Shown piece after piece: positions 11,576-20,436 of a stretch of DNA of 29,999 nt; position 1 is the first letter of the stretch, and each line of letters begins with the position of its first letter. The notes below the pieces were generated by a model, which saw only the letters and a program-made list of their open reading frames with translations, was not told where the DNA came from and searched no databases. The DNA is from a virus. The translations under genes and the position numbers were made by a program. The DNA lies in the IMG/VR virus record IMGVR_UViG_3300046028_001977, positions 1 to 29,999 of that record; one strand, given 5' to 3'.

Positions 11576-11994
11576 TGAAAATAGCCATTATAACCTTATT
11601 TTTGGCAGTTATTTCAATTTTGGCATATCCATACACAAAACAGGATAAGTTTGAAATTCAAGGCACTTCTGTTGATTTAAGTGTTACCATATTGGTTACA
11701 GAAGATACTGCAAAAGCAGCAGCATATGTAAGGGCTAATTTAGATACTACTGCAAAGGGGTCAGATTTTGATTGCAGGGGGGTTACATTTCCAACACAGG
11801 ATGGTAAGCCAATTATTATTTGGCTGCCTAATTTAGAAGATAAAGGGGTTATAAGTCATGAACTATTTCATGCAACTATAAGCAAGATGCAATGGGCAGG
11901 TATATCATTGACAGATGATACAGAAGAAATATATGCCTATGAACTTCAATACTTAACTAATCAATTTAATAATCATGTCAGAAGGTCTAATTAG
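11575..11994 (+). CDS. Membrane or exported zincin-like metallopeptidase
   Basis: 139 residues. The first ~18 residues (IAIITLFLAVISILAY) are a signal anchor or signal peptide. The zinc motif is H95-E96-L-F-H99 (HELFH), and TEEIYAYELQYL begins 17 residues later, with Glu117 or Glu118 as a likely third ligand in the gluzincin manner. The fold before it (SVTILVTED..., VTFPTQDGKPIIIWLP) reads as the beta sheet that precedes such a helix. It is thus likely an active peptidase facing the periplasm, though substrates cannot be inferred. It overlaps the SPFH gene by 20 bases. Confidence 0.65.
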   Translation: MKIAIITLFLAVISILAYPYTKQDKFEIQGTSVDLSVTILVTEDTAKAAAYVRANLDTTAKGSDFDCRGVTFPTQDGKPIIIWLPNLEDKGVISHELFHATISKMQWAGISLTDDTEEIYAYELQYLTNQFNNHVRRSN

Positions 11995-12496
11995 AATTTT
12001 TGAATGGATAGCTGAAATTTGGCGTGATTACCTAAGCCCTGTATTAGTTCTAAGATGTTATGAAGGTGGGGTGCTACTTAGATTAGGCACATACAGAAAG
12101 AATTTAAAAGAAGGGATTAATTTTAAAATTCCATTAATAGATGAAGTTCATTTTGTTATTACAACAATAGATACTTTTCATATAAGCCCTGTGGATATTA
12201 CCACATTAGATAATAAACAGGTTTCAGTTGAACCTATTATTAAGTTTGATATTATAGACCCTAAGAAATACCTTGTTGATGTTAATGAAGCAGCAGGTAA
12301 CATACATGACATTGCAAGGGGGGTTATTGCAGATTACCTTACAGATTGTACATGGGATGAAATAAAGAAGAAAAGTACCCTGACTGCCATTAAGAATGCC
12401 CTTAAAAAAGAATGTGATGACATGGGCATTAATATTTATAAAGTGTATTTTGGTAGGATTGTTACCACAAAAATGTACACTATCTTTAAAGACTAA
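11975..12496 (+). CDS. Minimal SPFH (band 7 / stomatin-like) protein
   Basis: 173 residues. After an amphipathic N-terminal section (IFEWIAEIWRDYLSPVLVL) comes the SPFH start pattern (EGGVLLRLGTYRKNLKEGINFKIPLIDEV), then TTLDNKQVSVEPIIKFDI, the conserved central strands, and the helix IARGVIADYLTDCTWDEIKKK typical of prohibitin and HflC type domains. Bacterial HflK/HflC and stomatins are ~300 residues; this one lacks the long coiled-coil tail. SPFH proteins form rings on membranes and usually partner a membrane protease; the upstream overlapping zincin gene is a candidate partner. The family call is strong, the role inferred. Confidence 0.75.
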   Translation: MSEGLIRIFEWIAEIWRDYLSPVLVLRCYEGGVLLRLGTYRKNLKEGINFKIPLIDEVHFVITTIDTFHISPVDITTLDNKQVSVEPIIKFDIIDPKKYLVDVNEAAGNIHDIARGVIADYLTDCTWDEIKKKSTLTAIKNALKKECDDMGINIYKVYFGRIVTTKMYTIFKD

Positions 12497-14959: not shown

Positions 14960-15397
14960 ATGATTTCAACTACTAAACAAGAATTAATAAATACATATTC
15001 TTCTATAAGAAAAGGGTTTTCAGACCTACACAATATAATGAAAAAAGAAAATTTAATTGATGATGACTTTTTTAATGTTCAATATCCAAAAATTGCAACA
15101 CCTGAAAAAATAGTAGAATTAGTTAATGATTTCTTTGATGCTGATTTAAGGGCTAAGAATAGAAAGAAAACTACTATTTATGCAAGACAAGCAGCAGCAT
15201 ATATTTTAAGAAAATACACCCATTTGTCATTACAGGAAATAGCATTTAATGTAGGACTTACAGACCATACAAGTGCTATATATCATGTCAGAAAATGTCA
15301 GGATATTATGGATACAGAAGAATGGTTTAGGGATAAAGTTTATTATATTATTGCTGAAATAGAAGAATATTTAGTACATTTGAGGTCTAAAGATTAA
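14960..15397 (+). CDS. DnaA domain IV-like DNA-binding protein
   Basis: 145 residues. Residues ~70-120 match DnaA domain IV: TTIYARQAAAYILRKYT, HLSLQEIAFNVGL and the signature T101-D102-H103-T104 followed by IYHVRKCQ, the region that reads DnaA boxes. There is no AAA+ ATPase, so it can bind DNA but not form the DnaA initiation filament alone. The N-terminal ~65 residues are a helical unknown domain. It lies right before the RNA leader and the replication initiator gene, so it may act at the origin or as a regulator there. Confidence 0.78.
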   Translation: MISTTKQELINTYSSIRKGFSDLHNIMKKENLIDDDFFNVQYPKIATPEKIVELVNDFFDADLRAKNRKKTTIYARQAAAYILRKYTHLSLQEIAFNVGLTDHTSAIYHVRKCQDIMDTEEWFRDKVYYIIAEIEEYLVHLRSKD

Positions 15398-15404
15398 TAT
15401 TAAT

Positions 15405-15515
15405 GCTATGTCGTATATAGCTTACACAGACAATATTGGGTCAAGGATGAACTGCAGATACGACCTGCAGGGATTCTGCGACCCATTTTTTATTTTATGG
15501 CAAAAGACCCTGCAG
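15405..15515 (+). ncRNA. Kissing-loop structured RNA leader of the replication initiator
   Basis: Hairpin 1 (15405-15421) has stem GCTAT/ATAGC and the 7-base loop GTCGTAT. Hairpin 2 (15452-15470) has two CTGCAG arms and the 7-base loop ATACGAC. The loops are exact reverse complements. TGGGTC (15437-15442) pairs with GACCCA (15480-15485), enclosing hairpin 2, and six T follow (15486-15491). Competing fold: CTGCAGGG (15465-15472) pairs over 8 bases with CCCTGCAG (15508-15515), placing the start codon at 15497 in the loop. The region lies entirely between two genes except its last bases. It looks like a cis-acting RNA switch; no known class recognised. Confidence 0.7.
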
Positions 15516-16132
15516 TATTATTTTATACATCAGATTTTTTAAGTGGCACATTTACTTTAACAGATGAACAGGTAGGTAAGTATATTAGATTGTTATGCTT
15601 ACAACATCAGAAAGGTAAGCTAAGTGCAAAGGATATGCTAAGCATATGCAAAGCATATGATGTTGACATTTATGAAAAATTTAAAGTAGAAGATGGTTTT
15701 TACTTAAATGAAAAGATGTACAATGAAACTATTAGAAGGCAAAAGTTTACAGAAAGTAGAAGAAATAATGCTAAAACAACTAAAAATGATAGCATAAGCG
15801 AAGCACATGCTAAGCATATGCCTAAGCATATGGAAACTGAAACTGAAACTATAACTATAACTAATACTATAAATAGAAAGGAAAACTTTGAAAATTTAGT
15901 ATCTGAATATAAAAGCCTACTAACTGAATCATATGATGAATTTATTGAATATTGGTGTGAACCATCTAAAAGTGGTAAATTACGATATGAAGCAGAAAAG
16001 TTTTTTGATGTGAAAAGAAGGGTTAATACTTGGATTAAAAACAAACTTAAATATGGAAATACAAAAACATCTACACCAACTGCAGCAAGTACAAAAAGAA
16101 TGTCAGACCTTGCAGATTGGGTTAATAGCTGA
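15497..16132 (+). CDS. Replication initiator-like protein (DUF1376 / replisome-organizer type)
   Basis: 211 residues. The N-terminal ~95 residues (PAVLFYTSDFLSGTFTLTDEQVGKYIRLLCLQHQKG ... NEKMYNETIRRQK) are a DUF1376-type winged-helix domain found in phage replication proteins. The middle is a low-complexity linker (METETETITITNTIN) encoded by tandem DNA repeats. The C-terminal ~80 residues are helical (YKSLLTESYDEFIEYWCE ... VNTWIKNKLKYG). As in lambda O, the origin repeats appear to lie inside this gene. The next gene overlaps its end and is probably the helicase-loader partner. Expression is probably controlled by the RNA leader. Confidence 0.72.
   Translation: MAKDPAVLFYTSDFLSGTFTLTDEQVGKYIRLLCLQHQKGKLSAKDMLSICKAYDVDIYEKFKVEDGFYLNEKMYNETIRRQKFTESRRNNAKTTKNDSISEAHAKHMPKHMETETETITITNTINRKENFENLVSEYKSLLTESYDEFIEYWCEPSKSGKLRYEAEKFFDVKRRVNTWIKNKLKYGNTKTSTPTAASTKRMSDLADWVNS
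15629..15659 (+). repeat. Origin iteron cluster 1
   Basis: Three copies of AAGCATATG at 15629 (one mismatch, AAGGATATG), 15640 and 15651, period 11 bases. The copies fall in different reading frames, so the DNA rather than the protein sequence is repeated. The half CATATG is palindromic. A possible degenerate repeat precedes them near 15617. Confidence 0.62.
15801..15832 (+). repeat. Origin iteron cluster 2
   Basis: AAGCACATG at 15801, then AAGCATATG at 15812 and 15824 (periods 11 and 12). This continues the motif of cluster 1, 150 bases upstream. Together they give six iterons on one strand inside the initiator gene, matching the layout of lambda-type origins. Confidence 0.62.
15833..15874 (+). 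repeat. A+T-rich tandem 6-mers, probable unwinding element
   Basis: Seven tandem six-base units, starting with three GAAACT and then ATAACT, ATAACT, AATACT and ATAAAT. They lie directly after the last iteron. Because the units drift towards A+T, the run resembles the DNA unwinding element beside iterons in phage and plasmid origins. It encodes a TETETITIT-type linker. Confidence 0.55.
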
Positions 16133-16953: not shown

Positions 16954-17248
16954 ATTAACTAAGTGGGCTAAAACCAACTTTGAATACATGGGTTATAGAC
17001 TTAACAGGGTTAACAATATACCTTATGGTAAAAGAAAAGGCACTATTCAAAAAGGATGGGCAGACCTACAGGGTTACACTACAGATGGTAAATATTTGGC
17101 AGTTGAAATTAAAAAACTTGGTGACAGATTAAGCATTGACCAAAAAGAAAGATTTAATGATATACATAAATGTGGGGGGATTGTGTATATTTGTACTGAA
17201 AAGGATAACAAGCCTATTCTTATAGAATGGTCAAAACTGAAATTATAG
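16934..17248 (+). CDS. VRR-NUC / resolvase-type nuclease
   Basis: 104 residues with the PD-(D/E)xK pattern: KGWAD (Asp44), a short hairpin, then LAVEIKK (Glu58-x-Lys60), and SIDQKERF (Gln70) before a final strand (GIVYICTE). This is the VRR-NUC layout, found in phage and repair nucleases that cut branched or flap DNA. With ERF and the SSB-like protein it would complete a recombination set. It overlaps the sigma-like gene by 22 bases. Confidence 0.75.
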   Translation: MDISANELTKWAKTNFEYMGYRLNRVNNIPYGKRKGTIQKGWADLQGYTTDGKYLAVEIKKLGDRLSIDQKERFNDIHKCGGIVYICTEKDNKPILIEWSKLKL

Positions 17249-17709
17249 CTAAGCTATGGGATAACAAAGAAGTTAATGAAGCATTTTCCAAGATGCATCC
17301 TGTAGAACTGCAATATGATTTGAAGGCAGAAGTTTTTTTAGTTCTTTGTGAAATGGATGATGACAAGTTGATAGGAATGTATAACAGAAATGAAATAAGA
17401 TTTTTTTTAGTTAGGGTTATGCTTAACATGATTAAATCAGACAGAAGTACATTTTGGAAACAATATAGAAACTATACTGAATATGATGGTAAAGAACAGG
17501 TAGAAGTAGTACAGGCAAACATTATAGACAAAATGGAATCAAGCATTGAAAAACTACATTGGTATCAAAAAGAAATATTAAGACTATATGCATTAGACTT
17601 TAACAAGAATGCAAAAGAATTAAGCAGACAAACAGGAATACCATACATGTCTATTATAAGAACTTTAAAACAAACTAAAACAGAACTAAAGAAAAACATT
17701 AGAACATGA
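17227..17709 (+). CDS. Sigma-like transcription factor candidate
   Basis: 160 residues. Residues ~14-80 form a helical block like sigma region 2 (VELQYDLKAEVFLVL ... FFLVRVMLNMIKSDRSTFWKQY) and residues ~108-155 a region-4-like helix-turn-helix (LHWYQKEILRLYALDFNKNAKELSRQTGIPYMSIIRTL). ECF-type sigma factors are ~170-200 residues, so the size fits a compact version. It may direct transcription of middle or late phage promoters, perhaps those with the CC(A/G)TTCAT repeats. A different HTH regulator remains possible. Its stop overlaps the next start (ATGA). Confidence 0.55.
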   Translation: MVKTEIIAKLWDNKEVNEAFSKMHPVELQYDLKAEVFLVLCEMDDDKLIGMYNRNEIRFFLVRVMLNMIKSDRSTFWKQYRNYTEYDGKEQVEVVQANIIDKMESSIEKLHWYQKEILRLYALDFNKNAKELSRQTGIPYMSIIRTLKQTKTELKKNIRT

Positions 17710-17943: not shown

Positions 17944-18294
17944 ATGATACAAGAACACAAAGATTTTTTAGTTGAAAACATCAACAATTGGCATACTGCA
18001 CAGAATGGCTATGTCAGAAACTTAGATTTGCCATTGCTTAAAATGTATGAGCATATATACAGAAAACACTTAGATGCTAATTTTGTACTTACCCATTGGT
18101 GTGGTGGTTGCAAGATGGAAATGATTACAAGGTTGTATAAGTACTATGAAAGTTTACCAATAGAAAACTTACCTGTAGAAAAGAAAGAAATTCTAATTGA
18201 ATTAACTAATGATAATTTTGAAGAAGATTCAGTAATAACTTTTATAACAGAAGAACCTAAAAAAAGAGGTCGTAAACCAAAAAAGAATGGCTAA
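17944..18294 (+). CDS. Unknown protein with CxxC and AT-hook-like tail
   Basis: 116 residues. A helical N-terminal part (LPLLKMYEHIYRKHL) leads to HWCGGCKMEMITRLYKYYE, a CxxC pattern seen in many small Bacteroidota phage proteins of unknown role. The very end, EEPKKRGRKPKKNG, holds RGRKP flanked by lysines, similar to an AT-hook (RGRP core) that grips A+T-rich minor grooves, suggestive of a DNA-binding tail. Its gene overlaps the acyltransferase gene by 8 bases. Confidence 0.6.
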   Translation: MIQEHKDFLVENINNWHTAQNGYVRNLDLPLLKMYEHIYRKHLDANFVLTHWCGGCKMEMITRLYKYYESLPIENLPVEKKEILIELTNDNFEEDSVITFITEEPKKRGRKPKKNG

Positions 18295-18790
18295 CTATAT
18301 ACATCCAACTGCTATCATTTATGATGGTGTAACATTAGGTGATAACAATTATATTGGTGCTTATTGCATTATAGGTGCACCTGCTGAACATAAAAAGTAT
18401 TGGGGTAAAGAAACAGGCAAAGTAATTATAGGTAATAACAATATCATTACAGGTTTAGTTACAATTGATGCAGGTACAGAAGATATTACTTATATCCAAG
18501 ATAATTGCTTTATTATGAAACATGCACATATAGGGCATGATTGTACAATTTTTGATAATGTTACTATCAGTTGTGGTGCTAAGATTGGTGGTCATTGTAT
18601 CATTGAACCATATTCAAACATAGGATTGAATGCAGTACTACATCAATATGCACATGTGCATGAAGGTTGTATGATAGGTGCAAGTGCATTCTTTAAAGGT
18701 GAATCAGAACCATTTACAAAATATGCAGGTGTACCTGCAAGAAAATTAGGTAGCAATGAATATAGCCGTAATCTTATTGACCCTAAATAG
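18287..18790 (+). CDS. LpxA-like hexapeptide acyltransferase
   Basis: 167 residues of left-handed beta-helix repeats (hexapeptides from HPTAIIYDGVTLG onward). HAHIGHD gives His81 and His84, GGHC gives His103 and LHQY gives His119, matching in order and spacing the His122, His125, His144 and His160 of E. coli LpxA; the NNIITGLVTIDAGT region also matches LpxA. LpxA-type enzymes move an acyl group from ACP to a UDP-sugar, or similar. The C-terminal helical domain of LpxA (~262 residues in total) is missing and the chain ends at YAGVPARKLG. Next to two glycosyltransferases it probably modifies a surface sugar or lipid; the substrate is unknown. It overlaps the next gene by 35 bases. Confidence 0.72.
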   Translation: MANYIHPTAIIYDGVTLGDNNYIGAYCIIGAPAEHKKYWGKETGKVIIGNNNIITGLVTIDAGTEDITYIQDNCFIMKHAHIGHDCTIFDNVTISCGAKIGGHCIIEPYSNIGLNAVLHQYAHVHEGCMIGASAFFKGESEPFTKYAGVPARKLGSNEYSRNLIDPK

Positions 18791-19466
18791 AAGTGACTAT
18801 TCTATTCAAGTGATTAACCAAAACTTTAAAAATAGTGGTTACAATGCTGACTGCTTTTTAATTGATAATGGTAGTACTGATAAAGAATTTTTAAATGTAG
18901 CTAATGCATATAAATGGCATTTTGCTACATGGTCACAATCAAAAAGGGGAATAGCTGCAGGTGTGAATTTTGGGCTAACACTTACTAAAGATTATGATGC
19001 AGTTGTAATTATGGCAAATGATATTTTAATGCCTGAATTTTGGCTATTGTCAATGGTCAATCATTCAATCAATATACCAAGTACAGGAATCATTGGCATA
19101 CATTGTGTAGAAGAATTACCCCCATTAGTTGATGGCATCCATAAGACACATACACCATTTGGTAACAATCTTATTACAAGAAGTTTAATAGATACTATAG
19201 GTGGGTACAATACAGAATATGACCCATATGGAATGCAAGACAGGGATTATGCAGAAAGGGCTACATTGGCAGGGTACACTAATTACTATCTGCCAAATAT
19301 GAAAAGTGTACATATAGGGCATGATGTTGGTGAAAATTCTGAATATAGGATAATGAAAGATAATAGTTTAAACATAGCACAATTGGTATGGGAAAGATAC
19401 CAACCAATATATCACCAACAAAAGAATCTGTTTATACCTTATGCGAATATTAGCAATAACAAGTAA
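18756..19466 (+). CDS. GT2-family glycosyltransferase
   Basis: 236 residues with the GT-A fold: N-terminal VILLTLNR, then IDNGSTD (37-42), KRGIAAGVNFGL, MANDI (Asn88-Asp89 in the usual DxD place) and QDRDYAERATLAGY, where the catalytic acid normally lies. It would move a sugar from a nucleotide sugar to a glycan. The start lies inside the acyltransferase gene and the end inside the next glycosyltransferase gene, so the three are translationally linked. Confidence 0.75.
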   Translation: MNIAVILLTLNRSDYSIQVINQNFKNSGYNADCFLIDNGSTDKEFLNVANAYKWHFATWSQSKRGIAAGVNFGLTLTKDYDAVVIMANDILMPEFWLLSMVNHSINIPSTGIIGIHCVEELPPLVDGIHKTHTPFGNNLITRSLIDTIGGYNTEYDPYGMQDRDYAERATLAGYTNYYLPNMKSVHIGHDVGENSEYRIMKDNSLNIAQLVWERYQPIYHQQKNLFIPYANISNNK

Positions 19467-20436
19467 ATTTAGTGGGGTTGGCTATCATAGGATTATGATG
19501 CCTTTAGTTAATATGCAGAAAGATTATTGCATGATAACAGATACTTTGAGTGAAGAAATAATAGATAACAAGTATGACATCTTAGTGATGAATAGAATGC
19601 TGACAGGTGTAACCCCTGAAGAATTACAAGCATGGCAAAAGAAATATGGCTTTAAGATTGTAGTTGACAATGATGACTATTGGGAATTACCCCCATCACA
19701 CCCATTAGCATATGCCTACCAAATTAATCAAGTACCTGCACAGATTAAATCATTTATACAAATTGCTGACCTATGCACCTGTACACATGAAAGGTTGGCT
19801 GAAGAAATATCTGCATTGAATAAGGTAGTGGAAATACTACCTAATGCATTACCATATGGTGAAGAACAATTTATGGATAATAAGATTGAAAGTGATTTAG
19901 TCAGATTGTTTTGGTCAGGTTCAGGTACACATGAAAAGGATATTGACATTCTTAGGAATCCAATGAAGAAAATTAATTTCCCTGTTAAGACAATTGTAGC
20001 AGGTTACAATGATGGTGAAAAATTAATATGGGGTCGCATTATTGATTCATTTACTAAAGGGCTTAAATTGAATCCTACCATCTATAACTACAATGAAGTG
20101 ACAAAGTACATGGCAGCATATACTGATTCAGACATTAGTGTTATACCATTGGTTGACAATAAGTTTAATGCCATGAAGTCAAACCTAAAGATATTAGAAA
20201 CTGCTACCAAGAAGAACCCTGCCATTGTATCACATGTCAACCCATACCTTAATATGCCTGTTCAGTATGTAAAGAAGCAAACAGATTGGTATAAACATAT
20301 GCATCAATTAGTTCATGATAAAGAATTAAGGATAGGACTTGGACAGGAATTATATGACTACTGCCATAAGCATTATAACTTTCACCAAATAAATAAGCAA
20401 AGGTTTGCTATTTATAATAAACTAATAGGCAAATAA
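19441..20436 (+). CDS. GT4-like (GT-B) glycosyltransferase
   Basis: 331 residues. N-terminal ILAITSKFSGVGYHRIMMPL, VVDNDDYWELP, then TCTHERLAEEI, and a second half with LFWSGSGTHEKDID, the C-terminal nucleotide-sugar domain, and SNLKILETATKKNPAI, the typical GT-B acidic/lysine binding site region. Such enzymes are common in Bacteroidota phages. With GT2 and the LpxA-like enzyme it forms a three-gene cell-surface or virion glycan cassette. Shares its stop with the next start (TAATG). Confidence 0.7.
   Translation: MRILAITSKFSGVGYHRIMMPLVNMQKDYCMITDTLSEEIIDNKYDILVMNRMLTGVTPEELQAWQKKYGFKIVVDNDDYWELPPSHPLAYAYQINQVPAQIKSFIQIADLCTCTHERLAEEISALNKVVEILPNALPYGEEQFMDNKIESDLVRLFWSGSGTHEKDIDILRNPMKKINFPVKTIVAGYNDGEKLIWGRIIDSFTKGLKLNPTIYNYNEVTKYMAAYTDSDISVIPLVDNKFNAMKSNLKILETATKKNPAIVSHVNPYLNMPVQYVKKQTDWYKHMHQLVHDKELRIGLGQELYDYCHKHYNFHQINKQRFAIYNKLIGK

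Follow-up and report, generated by a model that had tools for sequence, protein, structure and literature searches.

A covariation-supported kissing-loop RNA, probably a cis-acting leader, upstream of a replication operon in Bacteroidota phages

Results

The element and its neighbouring genes

The window analysed here is an IMG/VR virus record of 29,999 bases in which the larger recognisable genes lie on the + strand. Ten of these genes carry tail, endolysin, terminase or other phage-type domains, and no integrase domain was found among the ten. The element under study sits in the 99 bases between an ORF at 14960-15397 and an ORF at 15497-16132. The upstream ORF matches the DnaA C-terminal domain (PF08299, 2.5e-14) and reads as a stand-alone DnaA-box-binding domain (145 aa) that seems to lack the AAA+ part. 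Judged by matches to PF07120 (7e-4, below Pfam's cut-off) and to the primosomal protein phrog_9327 (0.0078), the downstream product is a probable phage replication initiator or organiser. Further downstream, ORF 17227-17709 has a C-terminus resembling the helix-turn-helix of sigma region 4 (a weak match to phrog_22826 and none in Pfam); it possibly encodes a phage sigma-like regulator belonging to the same operon. We also observed, interspersed with the phage genes, an SPFH/Band-7 protein and several consecutive genes that look like hexapeptide transferases and glycosyltransferases (11975-12496 and 18287-20436).

A sequence-only reading of this window had described two hairpins with perfectly complementary 7-base loops and a terminator-like end, formed by a 6-bp outer stem followed by six T. 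We found both to be present at these positions (Table 1). The region 15387-15492 folds at -29.2 kcal/mol (z = -3.86, with 0 of 200 shuffles as good) and hairpin 2 (HP2) at -23.6 kcal/mol (z -4.5). The outer stem of HP2 in the window's subfamily is only 5-6 bp long with internal loops above it, and is weaker than a textbook terminator. From the position of the -7 box, transcription would start near 15387, and the 3' end of the upstream ORF would contain the leader promoter.

Table 1. Positions of the leader RNA, its putative promoter and neighbouring features in the window
Feature	Position	Strand	Remarks
-33-like TTG of putative Bacteroidota-type promoter	15351..15353	+	within 3' end of upstream ORF; 24 nt before TA of -7 box
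Putative -7 box TACATTTG	15375..15382	+	consensus TAnnTTTG
Hairpin 1 (HP1)	15405..15421	+	5-bp stem GCTAT/ATAGC, 15405-15409/15417-15421
HP1 loop GTCGTAT	15410-15416	+	7 nt
A/U-rich single-stranded linker TTACACAGACAATAT	15422..15436	+	in relatives, conserved end AATATT / AACTTATT
Hairpin 2 (HP2), terminator-like	15437..15485	+	outer, middle and inner stems and 7-nt loop
HP2 outer stem TGGGTC/GACCCA	15437-15442/15480-15485	+	6 bp
HP2 middle stem AGGAT/ATTCT	15444-15448/15473-15477	+	absent from the sequence-only reading
HP2 inner stem CTGCAG/CTGCAG	15452-15457/15465-15470	+	carries loop ATACGAC
HP2 loop ATACGAC	15458-15464	+	exact reverse complement of HP1 loop
Kissing helix	15410..15464	+	15410-15416 with 15458-15464, 7 bp; covariation-supported
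U-tract, six T	15486..15491	+	directly 3' of HP2
First gene, DUF1376-like	15497..16132	+	ATG at 15497
CATATG clusters	15619-15662, 15791-15836		also L003 825-865, 986-1015; L021 6123-6174, 6295-6335; L158 3121-3174, 3293-3335; and in L033, L036, L043

The element recurs in related loci

We searched IMG/VR with the downstream protein, which gave 79 loci, with an alignment, which gave another 80 loci on contigs partly the same as those of the protein search, and with a Lin1244-type protein whose gene follows the RNA in some relatives, which gave another 64 loci. Using a strict scanner that demanded a 7-mer complement, both stems, a T-run and an ORF no more than 24 nt further on, we obtained 90 distinct copies from 2.68 Mb; block-shuffled sequence yielded none. 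The RNA was present within 3 kb upstream in 73 of 79 loci from the alignment search, 34 of 38 from the Lin1244-type search and 48 of 78 from the downstream-protein search, and in 4 of 64 bacterial-genome loci. These counts are minima, since the strict criterion misses diverged members that are visible by eye (L033, L044, L046, L050, L058, L060). A match with a 65-nt linker (L120) was treated as chance. All 19 records with a match held one copy each.

The loop pairs of the relatives include ATGGTAC/GTACCAT, ATGCGAC/GTCGCAT, ATGCAAC/GTTGCAT, GTAGGAT/ATCCTAC, GTCAGAT/ATCTGAC, GTGTCCG/CGGACAC, CCGCCAG/CTGGCGG, CTACCAG/CTGGTAG, and more. By string there are 27 different loop 7-mers; a few are one-base shifts of others, which leaves about 20-24 alleles. 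Loop sequences are also swapped between the hairpins, as with GTCGCAT, which is the HP1 loop of L052 and the HP2 loop of L021. The three CG steps pointed out in the sequence-only reading are present in the window; however, CG is not a conserved trait, and the commonest loop among relatives is GTAGGAT.

Host names, where given, are mostly Bacteroidota MAGs (L081, L092, L105, L116). In three close relatives (L026-L028) the leader RNA is missing and the ATG follows a TATATTTG box at a distance of 24 nt, as though excision had removed the leader module between promoter and gene. Relatives of the gene in Clostridia MAGs are without the leader RNA and have AGGAG sites instead. In five clostridial loci (L082, L085, L086, L087, L089) we observed a short hairpin upstream of the DUF1376-like start, before an AGGAG-like site, with stems that vary yet remain self-complementary (GGGCTAG/CTAGCCC, GGAGCAG/CTGCTCC, GGGATAA/TTATCCC); this is possibly another conserved leader element.

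No DNA similarity of the window to named phages was found, and at the protein level named phages contain remote relatives only. The strict scanner found no copy in Riemerella CRP5, Porphyromonas phage005 or Flavobacterium phage 1/32; in phage005 only 61 nt separate the two genes. No protein match was found in plasmids. Rfam 15 gave 0 matches at the gathering threshold for the whole window, only two chance hits far below threshold for the element alone at E<=5, and only tRNAs, located elsewhere, for 16 relatives. No earlier description was found in the literature searched, which lay mostly outside subscription journals. The leader RNA is almost certainly real and apparently undescribed so far.

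The hairpins and the kissing helix covary

A covariance model was built from the two hairpins only, without the kissing pairs, which guards against circularity. Its 33 training sequences were chosen by us, mostly from loci in which the pairing had already been seen, with one (L197) lacking it; over 100 sources this model gave 99 matches, of which 96 were strong and three weak (two of them on the opposite strand). Among 73 distinct rows, 97.3% of the cells of the kissing helix were paired, compared with 74.2% after shuffling and 17-45% when the loops were slid. The check on related genomes that the sequence-only reading had proposed therefore shows that loops changing without compensation are not the rule. 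The kissing helix had 118 double-change cells compared with 36 in shuffled alignments, a number that 0 of 500 shuffles reached, and on its own it had a covariation score of 0.60 versus 0.18 for shuffles. The counts of varied pairs and pair types do not separate this helix, taken alone, from shuffles (298/500 and 249/500), because the columns are already diverse.

For the whole structure 97.7% of cells were paired, 21 of 24 pairs had changed on both sides, and 496 double-change cells were counted versus 147 in shuffles (covariation score 0.76 versus 0.18). All 5 pairs of the HP1 stem (helix 1) are double-changed in relatives, with 94% of cells paired; in HP2 (helices 3-5) the paired fraction is 98.6-100% and 11 of 12 pairs have double changes. 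RNAalifold recovered both hairpins unaided, with double changes in 15 of 17 pairs. We also carried out a test blind to complementarity, in which hairpins were picked by stem strength alone and loci by their T-rich tail. At least 6 complementary nt were found in 16 of 38 distinct loop pairs, compared with 1.0 (max 5) when the loops were re-dealt.

The GU pairs conserved in HP2, together with its UA/UG exchanges, point to an RNA rather than a DNA structure. Also conserved are the purines left unpaired in the internal loops of HP2 (UGAA facing GGA). These alignments describe complementary stem-loops kept by compensatory change, the mark of an intramolecular kissing-loop RNA, and on this comparative evidence its structure and conservation appear very nearly certain.

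The competing fold is not a family feature

The sequence-only reading had further proposed a two-state switch, in which an 8-bp competing pairing would trap the start codon. In the window CTGCAGGG (15465-15472) can indeed pair with CCCTGCAG (15508-15515), but this pairing is found only in the window's own group. Across the family the longest helix that the 3' arm of HP2 can form with the start region has a mean length of 5.5 bp versus 5.3 bp in shuffled sequence, so trapping of the start codon is not a conserved property. No covarying alternative helix, antiterminator or other, was found in the family alignment. Since the competing fold is unconserved and no mutually exclusive helix covaries, a two-state RNA switch is unsupported. 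This pairing was the only listed item to fail on comparison.

A promoter consensus and a U-tract flank the element

The sigma-A promoter of Bacteroidota consists of a -33 TTTG and a -7 TAnnTTTG (PMC6847099, PMC9723704), and in F. psychrophilum the TAnnTTTG box lies at -12 to -5 (PMC9723704). In 70 of 88 copies, where 2.8 would be expected, a TAnnTTTG box falls within the 45 nt that precede HP1; in 37 of 67 relatives a TTG precedes this box by 23 or 25 nt. The box ends mostly 2-5 nt or about 13-18 nt before HP1; at a distance of 2-5 nt the predicted transcript starts with the first base pairs of HP1.

At the other end of the element, stems, T-run and ATG spacing recur in relatives, and the bases upstream of their start codons keep the same architecture with different letters. 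T is found at -10 to -6 in 85-95% of copies and at -1/-2 in 93-99%. The distance from T-run to ATG is 0-11 nt overall and 3-5 nt in 71 of 88 copies. A run of five or more T precedes the ATG in 70 of 74 leader genes versus 8 of 329 other long ORFs of the same loci, which are A-rich upstream of the start. As A at -3/-6/-12/-13 favours translation in F. johnsoniae (PMC6847099), the U-tract tail would be a poor initiation context and a good terminator tail. Several diverged members (L040, L041, L061) have uninterrupted terminator stems of 11-17 bp.

An AUG was also observed inside HP1 in 70 of 87 distinct copies (e.g. 15408 in the window, L159, L230). The frames that these open are AUG-stop in 24 copies and 2 to >30 codons in the others (30+ in 4).

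The first gene varies while the spacing is kept

The first gene behind the RNA is DUF1376-type in 53 copies, Lin1244-like (PF14297) in 23 and of another type in 14. In four loci (L031, L053, L211, L218) an HNH endonuclease gene lies precisely between T-run and initiator with the RNA-to-ATG spacing kept; the same spacing is seen before a DNA methyltransferase-like first gene (L242), and in L092 the first gene is a DEAD/SNF2-type helicase. We therefore rejected a tie to DUF1376 genes only. Because the first gene varies, the leader RNA belongs to the operon and not to one initiator. It is highly probable that it is the cis-acting leader of an operon.

Within the DUF1376-type gene we observed CATATG/GCATATG repeats with 11-bp spacing in two clusters about 150 bp apart (Table 1). 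They are kept in relatives despite different surrounding codons, and were not found in the Lin1244 member L230. These repeats look like initiator-binding iterons, and the initiator gene would then contain an origin, an arrangement known from lambda O.

Discussion

Our data are best explained by a cis-acting leader RNA of about 100 nt that makes up nearly the whole 5' UTR of the early/replication operon in Bacteroidota phages. Comparison of related sequences establishes the two hairpins and the kissing helix between them, as well as the U-tract, a promoter consensus and a location ahead of an operon. The suggestion that an RNA controls initiator dosage thus stands in part: a selected kissing-loop RNA with a terminator-like end precedes a replication-type gene, but 'initiator' is too narrow a term for a first gene that varies.

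Attenuation has, in our view, a somewhat better than even chance of being the main mechanism. Transcription would start just upstream of, or at, HP1, which would fold first, followed by the short A/U linker and then HP2. The 7-nt loop of HP2 could dock onto the HP1 loop to give an intramolecular kissing complex, and HP2 with the U-tract would form an intrinsic-terminator-like element ending shortly before whichever start codon is first. Many transcripts would stop at the U-tract, yielding a stable kissing RNA of about 100 nt, and the operon would be expressed via read-through. HP1-HP2 docking may set terminator efficiency, possibly tuned by a protein or RNA.

An attenuator is the simplest reading because a stable hairpin with an immediate U-tract lies between the putative promoter and the first gene, and because start sites elsewhere are A-rich. 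We infer termination, its regulation by the kissing contact and any trans factor or ligand from this arrangement. The contact is compatible with a formed terminator; as no antiterminator fold covaries, the ON state would have to come from a factor or from leakiness. Further observations count against attenuation: a pure terminator does not need the tight T-run-to-ATG spacing, which hints at translation, the outer HP2 stem is short and interrupted in the window's subfamily, and some close relatives (L026-L028) do without the leader RNA.

The fixed AUG spacing makes a translational leader a serious rival, although we judge it rather unlikely. With its 3' edge about 12 nt upstream of the AUG, the kissing complex would then block or recruit the 30S subunit in a non-Shine-Dalgarno host. 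A protein, possibly the operon's own product, would bind the structure and thereby control the first gene, in the way that gp32 acts at the pseudoknot of its own mRNA. Consistent with this, the spacing and the T at -1/-2 hold whatever the first gene, HNH and methyltransferase insertions before the initiator included, and the 3' edge of HP2 falls within -20..+20, where structure tunes initiation in F. johnsoniae (PMC6847099). However, no conserved pairing sequesters the start codon or the T-run, a U-tract stands where other genes of the same phages have an A-rich initiation context, and the layout of hairpin and U-tract is that of an intrinsic terminator.

The element might also be a promoter-terminator unit for an abundant phage small RNA of about 100 nt that acts mainly in trans, for example through base-pairing of one of its loops (HP1 or HP2) with RNAs from the host or from co-infecting phages, or by protein binding, with the operon fed by leaky read-through. 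A 5' end at HP1 and a terminator-like 3' end would make a closed RNA unit, there are at least 20 distinct self-complementary loop alleles, and prophage leaders that are both small RNA and mRNA start have precedents in IsrK and P4 CI RNA (PMC4825925). Against it, the element always lies directly before an operon ORF at fixed spacing. Among close relatives the loops change less quickly than does the HP2 stem (0.83 versus 0.70 identity), so we rejected loop hypervariability as a sign of a trans arms race over specificity. Neither loop 7-mer, nor HP1, has a second copy within the 30-kb window, whose record is possibly a fragment, and on this count a P4 CI / P1 C4-type antisense immunity RNA was also set aside. 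We consider an RNA acting mainly in trans unlikely.

It is decidedly unlikely, too, that the terminated RNA of about 100 nt works in trans, using its self-complementary loops to contact nascent leaders; RNA concentration, and with it the number of phage genome copies, would then set termination ahead of the replication operon. If true, copy number or superinfection exclusion would be controlled by RNA only and in an allele-specific manner, and the many loop alleles would define incompatibility groups. A DNA-level structure (origin, primer site or protein operator), suggested by the adjoining replication genes and the iteron-like 11-bp-phased CATATG repeats 120-340 bp downstream in the DUF1376 gene, is very improbable given the strand asymmetry (promoter 5', U-tract and ATG 3'), the GU pairs conserved in HP2, and the presence of the RNA before Lin1244 genes, with L230 lacking the repeats.

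The regulatory RNAs of Bacteroidota phages are largely unmapped, in a phylum without Shine-Dalgarno pairing. Here a compact RNA module lies between the putative promoter and the replication operon of many phages, ahead of exchangeable first genes. With its loop-loop contact supported by covariation, it offers a clean and testable case of leader tertiary structure, and the family is ready for a database entry. If attenuation is true, it would provide a swap-the-loops system for how a tertiary contact alters intrinsic termination.

Comparison with known systems

ColE1 RNAI-RNAII has hairpins with fully complementary 7-nt loops, is linked to replication and occurs as many loop alleles. The leader RNA shares the complementary 7-nt loops, the many alleles and the adjoining replication function. 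In ColE1, however, the loops lie on two opposite-strand transcripts and pair in trans, whereas here they are in cis on one short RNA whose second hairpin is terminator-like. As both loops are in cis, the opposite strand of the element mirrors both. In IncI/IncB a loop-loop pairing lies upstream of the replication gene, and RepZ requires a translated leader peptide and an antisense RNA. The analogy to RepZ/RNAI drawn in the sequence-only reading holds for loop-loop pairing near a replication gene and for nothing beyond that: HP1 frames here run from 1 to >30 codons and are absent in 17 of 87 copies, and no antisense gene is evident. A RepZ-type leader peptide was rejected, as HP1 AUGs are common but neither frames nor peptide are conserved.

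The T4 gene 32 leader is a phage mRNA with a tertiary pairing before an A/U-rich start region, near replication proteins. It differs in being an H-type pseudoknot without a terminator hairpin or U-tract, and in serving one gene whose product binds it, whereas here the first gene varies.

Orthogonality of RNAI/RNAII is the subject of PMC9458437. In the immunity system of satellite phage P4, RNA pairing in the leader of a phage replication operon is tied to premature transcription termination (PMC4825925, citing the P4 work). P4 CI RNA arises by processing of a long leader and has its pairing partners in separate seqA/seqC sites; the RNA described here would be one compact intramolecular fold. 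Gifsy-1 IsrK is a phage leader that ends as a short RNA or is read through into the operon (PMC4825925). By its description IsrK is set apart, since it opens the site of the downstream ORF by pairing elsewhere, in an Enterobacterial host (PMC4825925). By analogy, and with no homology implied, the leader RNA would be closest in function to P4 leader attenuation by CI RNA and to IsrK, and closest in geometry to ColE1 RNAI/RNAII.
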